DNA of 37,459 nt from Gammaproteobacteria bacterium (GTDB taxonomy: Bacteria > Pseudomonadota > Gammaproteobacteria > PS1 > Pseudothioglobaceae), in the NCBI GenBank assembly GCA_030611725.1, contig JAUWPG010000007.1, positions 1 through 37,459 of the forward strand, given 5' to 3'. Under the pieces are notes generated by a model, which was not told the origin of the DNA, did no database searches, and saw only the letters and a list, made by a program, of their open reading frames with translations. The position numbers were made by a program, and so were the translations under genes. Numbering within the stretch: position 1 is the first letter of the stretch; each line of letters opens with the position of its first letter. Shown piece after piece: positions 32,480 through 36,173 of the stretch.

Positions 32480-33424
32480 TTGTTTAATTTTTTAAAAAAA
32501 GATAAATCTGCACAATCAGAAAAACCTGCTTCATTAAAAGAGCGCCTGATTAAATCCAGGCAGAAACTCGGCTCTGATTTATCGGCGTTATTACTAGGTA
32601 AAAAAGAAATCAACGATAATTTACTTGATGAGCTAGAAACCTTACTTATTATTGCAGATATTGGCATCCATACAACGGATAAAATTTTAGAATCGGTACG
32701 AAAAAATGCCTCACGTAAAATACTTAGAGATTCTGACAGTCTGTATCAGTTCTTAAAAGAAGAATTAGAAAAATTGCTGATTGAGGACAGTCAACTAAAG
32801 ACCGATATTGGTGAGACTTTTGTGATTTTGGTGGTTGGTATTAATGGTGCTGGAAAAACCACCACCATTGGAAAATTAGCAAAATCTTTCCAAAACCAAG
32901 GTAAGTCAGTCATGCTTGCCGCTGGTGATACTTTCCGTGCAGCAGCAGTTGAGCAACTCAAAGTTTGGGGCGATCGTAATGATATACCTGTAGTCGCTCA
33001 AGCAACTGGCTCAGATGCTGCTTCCGTGATATATGATGCGTACGAATCCGCCAAAGCCAAAAGTATTGACATTCTTATTGCTGATACCGCAGGGCGATTA
33101 CATACTCAAGGCAATCTGATGCAAGAGCTTGAAAAAATCAAACGTGTACTTAAAAAGCACAATGAAAATGCCCCGCACGAAACCATGCTAGTGATTGATG
33201 GTGGCTCAGGACAAAATGCGATTAATCAGGCAAAGGAATTTAACAAGGCAGTTGGTCTAAGTGGTATTAGCATTACCAAACTCGATGGTACCGCCAAAGG
33301 TGGTGTGGTATTTGCTATTTCTGATGAGCTTAATTTACCACTGCGCTATATTGGCGTAGGTGAAGGCATTAATGATTTAAAGCCTTTTAACGCCAAAGAG
33401 TTTGTCAATGCTCTTTTTGAGTAG
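32480..33424 (+). CDS. ftsY: Signal recognition particle receptor FtsY
   Basis: GTPase that docks SRP-ribosome complexes at the inner membrane. Length 314 residues from a TTG. The N-domain (about 15-100) leads into the G-domain with GINGAGKTTTIGKLA, DTFRAAAVEQL, DTAGRLHTQGNLMQEL and TKLDGTAKGG. The long acidic A-domain of E. coli FtsY is missing; the protein starts with a short amphipathic stretch (MFNFLKKDK) that may bind lipid. ftsE, ftsX and rpoH, its usual followers, are not here. Confidence 0.96.
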   Translation: MFNFLKKDKSAQSEKPASLKERLIKSRQKLGSDLSALLLGKKEINDNLLDELETLLIIADIGIHTTDKILESVRKNASRKILRDSDSLYQFLKEELEKLLIEDSQLKTDIGETFVILVVGINGAGKTTTIGKLAKSFQNQGKSVMLAAGDTFRAAAVEQLKVWGDRNDIPVVAQATGSDAASVIYDAYESAKAKSIDILIADTAGRLHTQGNLMQELEKIKRVLKKHNENAPHETMLVIDGGSGQNAINQAKEFNKAVGLSGISITKLDGTAKGGVVFAISDELNLPLRYIGVGEGINDLKPFNAKEFVNALFE

Positions 33425-33450: not shown

Positions 33451-33492
33451 TTGTCATTCTTAATGTTCATTGGTATGATAATACCAATGAAC
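33451..33492 (+). promoter_or_regulatory. Promoter overlaid by a perfect 12-bp inverted repeat (operator-like)
   Basis: TTGTCA (33451-33456), a 17-base spacer and the extended -10 TGGTATGAT (33471-33479) form a good sigma-70 promoter. A perfect inverted repeat GTTCATTGGTAT-GATA-ATACCAATGAAC (33465-33476 and 33481-33492) covers the -10 and the expected start point. No T-run follows, so it is not a normal terminator of ftsY. A homodimeric repressor site is the simplest reading. The GAGG ribosome-binding site is at 33507-33510. Confidence 0.7.
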
Positions 33493-33517
33493 CTGCACAT
33501 CTTTTTGAGGCCACTTA

Positions 33518-34015
33518 ATGTATAAAAAACTAATCCTAATTTTAGGCCTACTTGTCGCCTTGCCGGCATTGTCAAACAGTGCGTTATTCGACCAGCATTT
33601 TAATGATTATTCGGAAAATTTAAGCGATGCCCAAGATGTTAATAAAGACGGTATTTTTATATTTTTCCATTTGGATGATTGCCCTTTTTGTCAAAAAATG
33701 GAGCGTCATGTATTAAACCAGCCAAAAGTTATTGAATACTTCAAGGCACATTTTTTAAATTACAAAATAAACACTAAATCAAACCTTGAAATGATTGATT
33801 TTAATGGTAACGATACCAATGAAAGGTTTTTTGCTAAAAGACACAATCGAATTGGTGCCACACCCGTGCTCGCTTTTTTTGACCTCAAAGGCAATCGAGT
33901 GGTCAGACGCACAGGATTTGCCAATCAACAAGATTTCCTGCTATTAGCCAAATACATGGTTGAAAAGGCTTATTTAAAAGAAAAATTTGTTCGTTATAAG
34001 CGTAAACATCGATGA
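33518..34015 (+). CDS. Exported thioredoxin-fold protein (SoxW-like)
   Basis: Protein of 165 residues with a signal peptide (MYKKLILILGLLVALPALS). The redox motif CPFC near residues 54-57 follows FIFFHLDD, as in SoxW/thioredoxin-related periplasmic proteins, and the cis-proline segment GATPVLAFFD is present. It should reduce or exchange disulfides, or carry sulfur, in the periplasm. It is the first gene of a three-gene operon under the palindromic promoter and overlaps the TolC-like gene by four bases (ATGA). The basic C-terminal tail (RYKRKHR) is unusual. SoxW identity is likely but other thioredoxin-like types are possible. Confidence 0.88.
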   Translation: MYKKLILILGLLVALPALSNSALFDQHFNDYSENLSDAQDVNKDGIFIFFHLDDCPFCQKMERHVLNQPKVIEYFKAHFLNYKINTKSNLEMIDFNGNDTNERFFAKRHNRIGATPVLAFFDLKGNRVVRRTGFANQQDFLLLAKYMVEKAYLKEKFVRYKRKHR

Positions 34016-35259
34016 AATTTTTAAGTTTTTTATTATTATTAGCTTCTAGTTTTACCCACTCAGCACAGCTACCCAATCCTCTAACTCTTGGCGACACACT
34101 AAAGCTTGCTAATGAGCACAATTACGCCGAAAAACAGCAGCTTCTTAATATTGATGCTGAACAACACCGGCTTATCGATTGGAAAAACCAATACGGCATA
34201 ACAACAAGCATTGATTTACAACTTGCTCAACGTAGTGATTATGGCTCTGCTGTTGACAATTCTCATGCATTCGTTCACCTTAAAAAAACGCTTTATAACC
34301 AAGCCATTGAAATTGGAAAAGACACTCAACAAAATACGCTCAATAACGCAACCCTGTCTTTTCAACAATTACAGCAGGATAAAACCATTGAAGTGATGCG
34401 CAGCTTCTTTGATATTATTTTGGCAGACATGTCTTACGAAACTATAATGGAAAATCTATCGATATTAGCCGTTCGAGAAGGTCGAATTAAAGATGATTAC
34501 GACATACAGCATGCATCAGAGCTGGAATTATTAGAAAAAAAAACCAGCACCCAAGCCAGCCAAATTCAACGTATTAAGGTAGAGTCTGAACAAATTAAAA
34601 CTCGAGCCAAGTTAGCACAACTGCTTAATGTTAATTATGAAAACCGCCCCGATGAAGTCATTAAGCCTGATTACAAATCTTTATTTAAAAAAGATTTGGC
34701 CGATTTTTCTGATTACCAGAAAAAACTTACAAACAACTTAAAGCTCAAACAACTTAAACAATATTTATTATCCATTGGTCGTCAAATTTCCCAGCAAAAA
34801 GATAATTTAGGCATAGTGATTAATTCAAGTGTTCGACTTGGAGAGCAGGGTTATCAGCGTGAAAAAAATGGCCAGTGGCGCGCTGGACTTCAGCTGTCTG
34901 TGCCATTTGGCGCTAATACCAAACAAGACAGTAAAATATCCCAACTAATAATTCAATCCAAGAAAAAACAACTTGAGATTGAAAAAGTCCAGCAAGATTT
35001 ACTTAGGGAGGCGTTGGATTATCACTTCAACCTTAGCGCATTGAGACAAACCCACAAAGCGCTAATCGTTGAGCTTGACTATCGAGACTTATATTTAGAA
35101 AAAGCACGTGCAGACTATGAATTGGAAATCAAAAGTGATATTGGCACTGCTATGGTCAACTATACTGATACTGAAAAAAAATTAGCTGAAAATGAATTTA
35201 ACTATATTATCACCCTTAAAAAATTACACCACCTCATTGGAGAAGAATATGAAATTTAA
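34012..35259 (+). CDS. TolC-family outer membrane channel protein
   Basis: Protein of 415 residues with a signal peptide (MKFLSFLLLLASSFTHSA). The rest is a repeated pattern of long amphipathic helices and short strands, as in outer membrane efflux proteins, with the opening LTLGDTLKLANEHNYAEK and two similar halves (for example QQLQQDKTIEVMRSFFDI and QDLLREALDYHFNLSAL). It would form a trimeric channel through the outer membrane for export. No inner-membrane pump gene lies in this operon. The stop overlaps the adaptor start by eleven bases. Confidence 0.88.
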   Translation: MKFLSFLLLLASSFTHSAQLPNPLTLGDTLKLANEHNYAEKQQLLNIDAEQHRLIDWKNQYGITTSIDLQLAQRSDYGSAVDNSHAFVHLKKTLYNQAIEIGKDTQQNTLNNATLSFQQLQQDKTIEVMRSFFDIILADMSYETIMENLSILAVREGRIKDDYDIQHASELELLEKKTSTQASQIQRIKVESEQIKTRAKLAQLLNVNYENRPDEVIKPDYKSLFKKDLADFSDYQKKLTNNLKLKQLKQYLLSIGRQISQQKDNLGIVINSSVRLGEQGYQREKNGQWRAGLQLSVPFGANTKQDSKISQLIIQSKKKQLEIEKVQQDLLREALDYHFNLSALRQTHKALIVELDYRDLYLEKARADYELEIKSDIGTAMVNYTDTEKKLAENEFNYIITLKKLHHLIGEEYEI

Positions 35260-35728
35260 CCACTGGTTGACATTGGGCTTACTTCTACCTAGTATCACTT
35301 TAGCACTAGATATTTATCCTCAAGTATCTGGCTCTATTATTGAAATAACAACACCTGGAAAGCAGGTTAATGCTGGGGATATACTGGTCAAACTGGATGA
35401 TAGACAGGCTCAGCTAAAACTGCAGCACTTGAAAATAACTGGCAGCATAAAACAACAATCCTTTGATGATGCCTTGTTGGTTTTAAATCAAACTCAAGAG
35501 TTGTATGATCGCATGGTGTCTTCTCATCGTGATTTAGACATTGCTAAAATGGAGCACGATGCCAAAAAGCGTGAGCTTGATGCACATAACGTATTGATAA
35601 AGATCCAAACAATTGAACTGGAAAAATACCAGATTAAATCCCCTATATCTGGCACAGTCGAACAAACACCTCACTTAAGAAATACTACTAATATAGCCAT
35701 ACCAAAGGTATTGGTCGTTATTGAATAA
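35249..35728 (+). CDS. Minimal HlyD/RND-type periplasmic adaptor
   Basis: Protein of 159 residues from the ATG at 35249 (a longer in-frame reading from 35192 lies inside the TolC-like gene and gives no signal peptide). It has a signal peptide (MKFNHWLTLGLLLPSITLA), a split lipoyl domain (PQVSGSIIEITTPGKQVNAGDILVKLDD, then IKSPISGTVEQTP) and a short alpha-hairpin between the halves (about 65-130). The beta-barrel and membrane-proximal domains that follow in normal adaptors (300-400 residues) are absent, so the protein ends right after the second lipoyl half (KVLVVIE). It is either a naturally minimal adaptor or a trimmed remnant. Confidence 0.8.
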   Translation: MKFNHWLTLGLLLPSITLALDIYPQVSGSIIEITTPGKQVNAGDILVKLDDRQAQLKLQHLKITGSIKQQSFDDALLVLNQTQELYDRMVSSHRDLDIAKMEHDAKKRELDAHNVLIKIQTIELEKYQIKSPISGTVEQTPHLRNTTNIAIPKVLVVIE

Positions 35729-35767: not shown

Positions 35768-36173
35768 GCTTATATTAAGCCGGTCAAATAAAGACTCCCA
35801 AGCGGTAAACTGGTTAAAGGTAGTGCTATGGCTTGTTCAAAATTGAGTGATTTTGGCTTACGACCCACAATGGCGCTCGTCCACGAGTTAGCGCGTTGTA
35901 TTTAAGCCGTCATGCGTCACATTACCCGCATAAAAACCTCATCACCAACTTTAAAAAGTGACACTTGTTCGCCAACTGCGCTCACAATACCTGAGGCATC
36001 ATAGCTTAGAATTTTTGGTACACTGTCTTTAACAATAGATTGCTTAACTTTGGTGTCAATTAGGTTGATAGAAATGACCTTTATTTCCACCAGTAAATCT
36101 TGACCTCTAGGATTGTTTAGGTTTTTTTTCAAACTCAATAAATTCACTACCGTTATAGCAAATATGCCTGCAT
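35768..36173 (-). pseudogene. Degraded zinc-type alcohol dehydrogenase (MDR, quinone-reductase-like)
   Basis: Family segments occur in the right order but in changing frames on the minus strand: YNGSEFIEFEKK, then QDLLVEIKVISINLIDTK and ILSYDASGIVSAVGEQVSLF with KVGDEVF (35917-36147, one open stretch), then YAGN after a lost T, LVDER, IVGRKPKSLNFEQAIALPL after an extra C, and WESLFDRLNIS after a lost base. At least four frameshifts plus stop codons are needed. The NAD-binding half is missing altogether. These members are about 330 residues when whole. The relic fills the only long gap in the window (35729-36174); the remaining bases of that gap show nothing else. Confidence 0.85.

Follow-up and report, generated by a model that had tools for sequence, protein, structure and literature searches.

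Tripartite efflux pumps combine a TolC-fold outer-membrane factor (OMF) with an adaptor, and in the TolC paradigm an energised inner-membrane transporter is a principal component. In the SoxV/SoxW branch electrons cross the inner membrane by a CcdA/DsbD-type protein, and Sox systems are known to require SoxVW-type thiol reduction. A major review places the transporter contacts of pump adaptors in the beta-barrel and membrane-proximal domains (PMC8277102). The movement of periplasmic sulfur into the cytoplasm is acknowledged to be unsolved, and a low-molecular-weight persulfide carrier has been proposed in Allochromatium (PMC3397948, PMC4213376). In Sulfurovum, another sulfur oxidiser, S0 induces genes for TolC and for HlyD-family proteins (PMC10045233). 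A cluster around thiocyanate dehydrogenase was considered as the same system and rejected, since its thioredoxin lacks cysteines and lies beside Cus genes (PMC6504805). A literature search, with most subscription papers outside its reach, found no published description of the three-gene module reported here, which is apparently undescribed and, from the genomes compared, widely conserved.

The module (the trio) was studied in a window of 37,459 nucleotides, the whole stretch of contig JAUWPG010000007.1 that was analysed. The closest named records carrying the trio are Candidatus Thioglobus and SUP05 cluster genomes, by which the source organism is identified as a SUP05-clade relative; its genome contains dsrA, in pieces. 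The features of the locus are collected in Table 1.

Table 1. Features of the trio locus, in window positions
Feature	Position	Strand	Description
trx	33518-34015	+	165 aa, first gene of trio, DCPFCQK motif
tolC-like gene	34012-35259	+	415 aa, second gene of trio
adaptor gene	35249-35728	+	159 aa, third gene of trio
putative sigma-70-like promoter	33451-33479	+	TTGTCA-N17-TGGTATGAT/TATGAT, TG before -10
inverted repeat	33465-33492		perfect, 12-bp arms (GTTCATTGGTAT-GATA-ATACCAATGAAC)
ftsY	32480-33424		flanks the trio
zinc-type alcohol dehydrogenase remnant	35917-36147	-	pseudogene beside the trio

All three genes point in the same direction and are flanked by ftsY and by a convergent block toward hemC. 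An earlier reading of the DNA, the sequence-only reading, had described an overlapping three-gene unit in which each product carries a signal peptide, and both points are borne out: the open reading frames are as described, trx and the tolC-like gene overlap by 4 bases (ATGA) and the tolC-like and adaptor genes by 11 bases, and the N-termini of all three proteins, judged by eye, are signal-peptide-like and have no lipobox cysteine. An alternative in-frame ATG of the adaptor at 35192 would give 178 aa; the start at 35249 is preferred, as it fits a clean signal peptide and agrees with the relatives. The trio is predicted to be driven by its own sigma-70-like promoter, which has 10 of 12 consensus matches and an extended -10. 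In the close relatives L041, L033, L028, and L044 a TATGAT-type -10 is found at the equivalent place 5' of trx, and much of the sequence around it differs. The unit had been taken to begin at 33451; this position is non-coding and belongs to the -35 hexamer of the promoter. The inverted repeat overlaps the -10 and is possibly an operator or attenuator; a conserved operator was rejected because the palindrome is missing from the relatives compared. No RNA element was found at the trio in Rfam at gathering thresholds. The alcohol dehydrogenase that survives as a remnant in the window is intact (about 330 aa) at the matching place in several relatives.

The second protein matches the Pfam family OEP (E 2.8e-15), as TolC-family channels do. 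Its AlphaFold (AF2) model has a pLDDT of 82 and a pTM of 0.75, and Foldseek gives whole-length matches of this model to TolC, OprM, and CusC with E values down to 3.5e-17. The protein is, by profile and model, a TolC-fold OMF, which upholds the TolC-like channel of the sequence-only reading. It contains zero cysteines and no lipobox.

The third protein matches RND_mfp with an E value of 3.4e-18, and the alignment covers only profile positions 28-148 of 322; the protein lies under the whole-protein cut-off of this family because it is short. In the AF2 model (pLDDT 82) helices 52-87 and 93-127, of 36 and 35 residues, stand between half-lipoyl strands, and the only other part is the signal peptide. 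Foldseek matches the model to AcrA, MacA, and MexA. The lipoyl and alpha-hairpin domains of tripartite-pump adaptors are present, whereas neither the profile match nor the model contains a beta-barrel or a membrane-proximal domain, the latter being a feature of RND and MacB types. The modelled window adaptor keeps the parts that meet TolC and is without the parts that grip a pump, so that the term minimal adaptor was well chosen. Adaptor size over the trio loci is usually 160-280 aa. The 160-190-aa form occurs in Thioglobaceae and a few other groups, whereas elsewhere, most relatives outside Thioglobaceae included, the adaptor is typically about 250-280 aa long and its C-terminus is short and barrel-type (HlyD_3). 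The window adaptor also has zero cysteines.

The first protein was predicted to be a CPFC thioredoxin-like protein, and its DCPFCQK motif and Pfam match to Thioredoxin_2 (E 1.5e-13) agree with this. The closest curated models are DsbH and the C-terminal (gamma) domain of DsbD, both far under cut-off; the DsbH score is 24.7 bits against a cut-off of 190, and the DsbH model matches 17 of 17 members of the family. The active site is CPxC at all 79 loci examined (CPFC in 68, CPYC in 7, and CPWC in 4), and an A-T-P-V loop is invariant. An exported thioredoxin fold with CPxC is the feature shared with DsbH/DsbD-type proteins, and the protein (Trx) resembles a DsbH/DsbD-gamma-like reductase in sequence. 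Among the family models there was no match of Trx to SoxW, and the trio lies outside sox clusters. Since the TolC-like protein and adaptor of the window have no cysteine, Trx is unlikely to act on disulfides of its two partners; its target is probably a third partner or a small molecule. Two other exported thioredoxin-like genes were observed. A 342-aa protein with two thioredoxin-like repeats (CPYC), a paralogue of Trx (G000:C26; L210 5838-6866), is widespread in the class sample. The other gene (G000:C63; L047 8205-8783) lies directly 5' of argH, divergent from hemC, and family members retain it about 3 kb away from the trio.

The sequence-only reading had proposed that related genomes be searched for the trio as a conserved unit. 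In a family-level sample of 83 genomes of the order, the trio is complete or nearly so in 20, and in the relatives inspected the order is trx-tolC-adaptor, nearly always between ftsY and hemC. Broken relics with stop codons or fragments occur in several host-restricted relatives (G036, G037, G039, G041, G042, and G043). The trio is decaying in place in several host-restricted Thioglobaceae symbionts (L022-L026, L045, and L046) and is intact in Bathymodiolus symbionts. A scan with Trx located the trio in genomes of Chromatiales, Thiohalomonas, Thiogranum, and Lucinoma symbionts, and a search of 369 species of the class found a matching Trx in many families; the trio, its gene order unchanged, spans 43 gammaproteobacterial families. 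Flanking DNA was available for 79 loci; the TolC partner is encoded at 72 of them and the adaptor at 69, and the missing partners mostly reflect contig ends or weaker Trx relatives. Strong Trx matches on intact contigs are accompanied by tolC and adaptor genes, with L195 as a possible exception. Chance adjacency of the genes is ruled out by the 20 Thioglobaceae genomes together with dozens of further loci.

The neighbours of the trio are ftsY/hemC, hda...proS, or dsbD, and the commonest context is hda-wrbA-arsC-LysM lipoprotein-(yihY)-(tlpA)-TRIO-acyP-slt-proS. Neither a sox gene nor a consistent metal-resistance gene was found beside the trio among the neighbourhoods examined. In a tree of the concatenated trio with a midpoint root, the hda...proS context lies on both sides of the root and the ftsY context has a single origin. 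Placement upstream of dsbD is seen at two points of the tree, split by well-supported (starred) branches: one is the Gsub genome, sister to the ftsY clade, with a gap of 16 bp, and the other is a clade of several other families with the arrangement TRIO-(cutA)-dsbD and gaps of 79 and 123 bp or cutA between. By this tree the whole trio was relocated twice, independently, to directly upstream of (cutA-)dsbD. An intact trio placed twice beside dsbD is good evidence from gene order for DsbD as a functional partner, and the linkage fits a reductase-like Trx that would receive electrons from DsbD. Inheritance of the trio appears to be largely vertical. Mirror-tree distances were rejected as a sign of interaction, since the correlation of tolC with the adaptor gene is no better than that of tolC with the housekeeping neighbours wrbA, hda, or proS. 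At 41 loci a TlpA-like redoxin is encoded close to the trio, mostly immediately 5' of it; this redoxin was rejected as a fourth component and is treated as a neighbour, as its distances correlate poorly with those of TolC and Trx (r about 0.3) and it is missing from the Thioglobaceae unit.

The distribution of the trio was compared with that of sulfur-oxidation genes, using a Trx match at E 1e-57 or better (a strong carrier) as a proxy for the trio, which the fetched loci support. Of the 369 genomes, 83 are strong carriers and 65 of these have dsrA, whereas only 53 of the other 286 have it (odds ratio 15.9, uncorrected for shared ancestry); the association persists at family level, again uncorrected for shared ancestry. 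Among carriers without dsrA, soxB is found in 15 of 18; in a sample of 62 genomes lacking both dsrA and the trio, 10 have it, a comparison likewise uncorrected for shared ancestry. One or other gene is present in 80 of 83 carriers versus roughly a third of non-carriers, without correction for phylogeny. Each of the 43 carrier families has at least one carrier with dsrA or soxB; 8 of these families have no dsrA, and in each of the 8 soxB occurs in one or more carriers. In Thioglobaceae, dsrA is present in 20 of 20 genomes with an intact trio and the trio in 0 of 33 genomes without dsrA; most of these 33 form one clade, so that the pattern there is close to one event. The 53 dsrA genomes of the class sample without the trio mean that rDsr sulfur oxidation as such does not depend on it. 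By these distributions the trio marks sulfur oxidisers, to whose sulfur oxidation it is accessory and not required. The earlier interpretation is thereby partly supported: the suggested thiol or sulfur role, with a putative substrate and direction, gains independent support from the co-occurrence with dsrA and soxB, the repeated relocation to dsbD, and the DsbH/DsbD-like Trx.

The reading preferred here, tentatively and with less than even confidence, is that the trio forms a pump-less outer-membrane conduit of sulfur-oxidising Gammaproteobacteria, in which a TolC-adaptor assembly works with a DsbD-fed periplasmic reductase on sulfane sulfur or thiols. The TolC-like protein would form a trimeric outer-membrane duct, and the hairpins of the short adaptor, from which the pump-binding domains are missing, would dock on its periplasmic mouth and hold or open it. 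DsbD would keep the exported Trx reduced with electrons from cytoplasmic thioredoxin, and Trx could then reduce or carry sulfane sulfur or thiols (polysulfide, persulfide, and mixed disulfides) that enter or leave via the duct. Reduction may thereby supply the directionality normally given by a pump. The cargo would be sulfane sulfur (polysulfide or persulfide) or a thiol, exported or taken up after reduction. Counted against the conduit are the co-occurrence uncorrected for ancestry, the vertical inheritance, the loss or decay of the trio in host-restricted symbionts, and an orphan RND gene in the source genome. The broader proposal of a widespread class of TolC conduits, in which a thiol-redox relay from DsbD to a dedicated thioredoxin replaces the pump and moves sulfane sulfur or thiols across the outer membrane, is doubtful.

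The main rival to the conduit is a conventional tripartite efflux system whose pump is encoded elsewhere, with Trx preparing the substrate. The sequence-only reading had noted that no pump is encoded with the channel and adaptor, and had proposed a search for a co-occurring pump gene in relatives. No ABC or RND pump gene belongs to the operon, either in the window or at the 79 loci with flanks; two RND ORFs, incidental and on the opposite strand, and two ABC-motif ORFs farther away lie outside the operon or at the locus edge. A family search for the pump genes of the source genome found the orphan RND pump gene (G000:C27; L205 5315-8386), with neither an adaptor nor an OMF gene adjoining, which could serve as the pump in trans, and the best profile match of the trio adaptor is the RND adaptor family. 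The genome also encodes other OMFs at C76 and C2 and, at C58, a second RND together with one complete adaptor. However, all 83 genomes of the Thioglobaceae sample contain RND genes, with or without the trio, so that these genes do not track it, the adaptor is without the domains that contact a transporter (PMC8277102), and the operon is free of pump genes in every relative. A pump in trans is considered unlikely on this evidence. A decayed pump operon was rejected, as the trio is intact in 20 relatives and the decay that is seen affects only the trio itself, in symbionts. On the two points that the sequence-only reading had named as able to overturn it, the three genes stay linked well outside the genus, and a pump operon is found at this place in none of the relatives.

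The trio could instead maintain sulfur enzymes, with a SoxW-like Trx as the reductant that reactivates SoxYZ or other sulfur carriers of the periplasm, while channel and adaptor do no more than vent by-products. The reductase-like character of Trx, the need of Sox systems for thiol reduction, and the presence of soxB or dsrA in nearly all carriers agree with such a role, but the trio has no sox neighbours, Trx has no SoxW model match, and the steady company of tolC and adaptor genes makes the channel look central; this explanation appears improbable. It is also possible that the link with sulfur oxidation is an accident of ancestry, the trio being an ancient envelope-stress or metal/thiol efflux module of Gammaproteobacteria that persists in deep lineages which by coincidence also kept sulfur oxidation. 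A single ancestral place (hda...proS) is common to most loci and inheritance is largely vertical, and in a vent bacterium Cd/Cu stress elicits a response of TolC and Trx genes (PMC10092412). This is opposed by soxB in all 8 carrier families that lack dsrA, by the losses within Thioglobaceae, where the dsr-lacking clade has no trio, and by the lack of a consistent metal-resistance neighbour. An accident of ancestry is rather unlikely, less so than enzyme maintenance.

Each part of the trio comes from a known family; what is new is the combination, the missing pump, and the distribution. It is still an open question (PMC3397948, PMC4213376) how zero-valent sulfur and thiols travel between the outside, the periplasmic globules, and the cytoplasm of sulfur oxidisers, and the trio provides a concrete genetic target for it. 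Its conservation among sulfur oxidisers points to an unrecognised route for sulfur or thiol handling at the cell surface and, if truly pump-less, it would extend the TolC paradigm.

Like AcrAB-TolC, MacAB-TolC, and MexAB-OprM, the trio encodes a TolC-fold OMF together with a lipoyl/hairpin adaptor. Unlike these pumps, the operon has no energised inner-membrane component in any relative, the window adaptor is without beta-barrel and membrane-proximal domains, and a gene for an exported thioredoxin-fold protein leads the unit. The DsbD-fed periplasmic reductases (DsbH, DsbC/TlpA-type proteins, and the DsbD gamma domain) share with Trx the export, the CPxC thioredoxin fold, and the best-matching models, DsbH and DsbD; Trx differs in sharing an operon with a channel and an adaptor and in scoring far below the DsbH and DsbD cut-offs. 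The SoxV/SoxW branch also features an exported thioredoxin in sulfur oxidisers, but Trx lies outside the sox cluster, is tied to TolC and an adaptor, and falls outside the SoxW model. The persulfide-carrier proposal likewise addresses the movement of sulfane sulfur in dsr organisms; however, it concerns the inner membrane and a small thiol, whereas the trio comprises an outer-membrane channel and a protein reductase.
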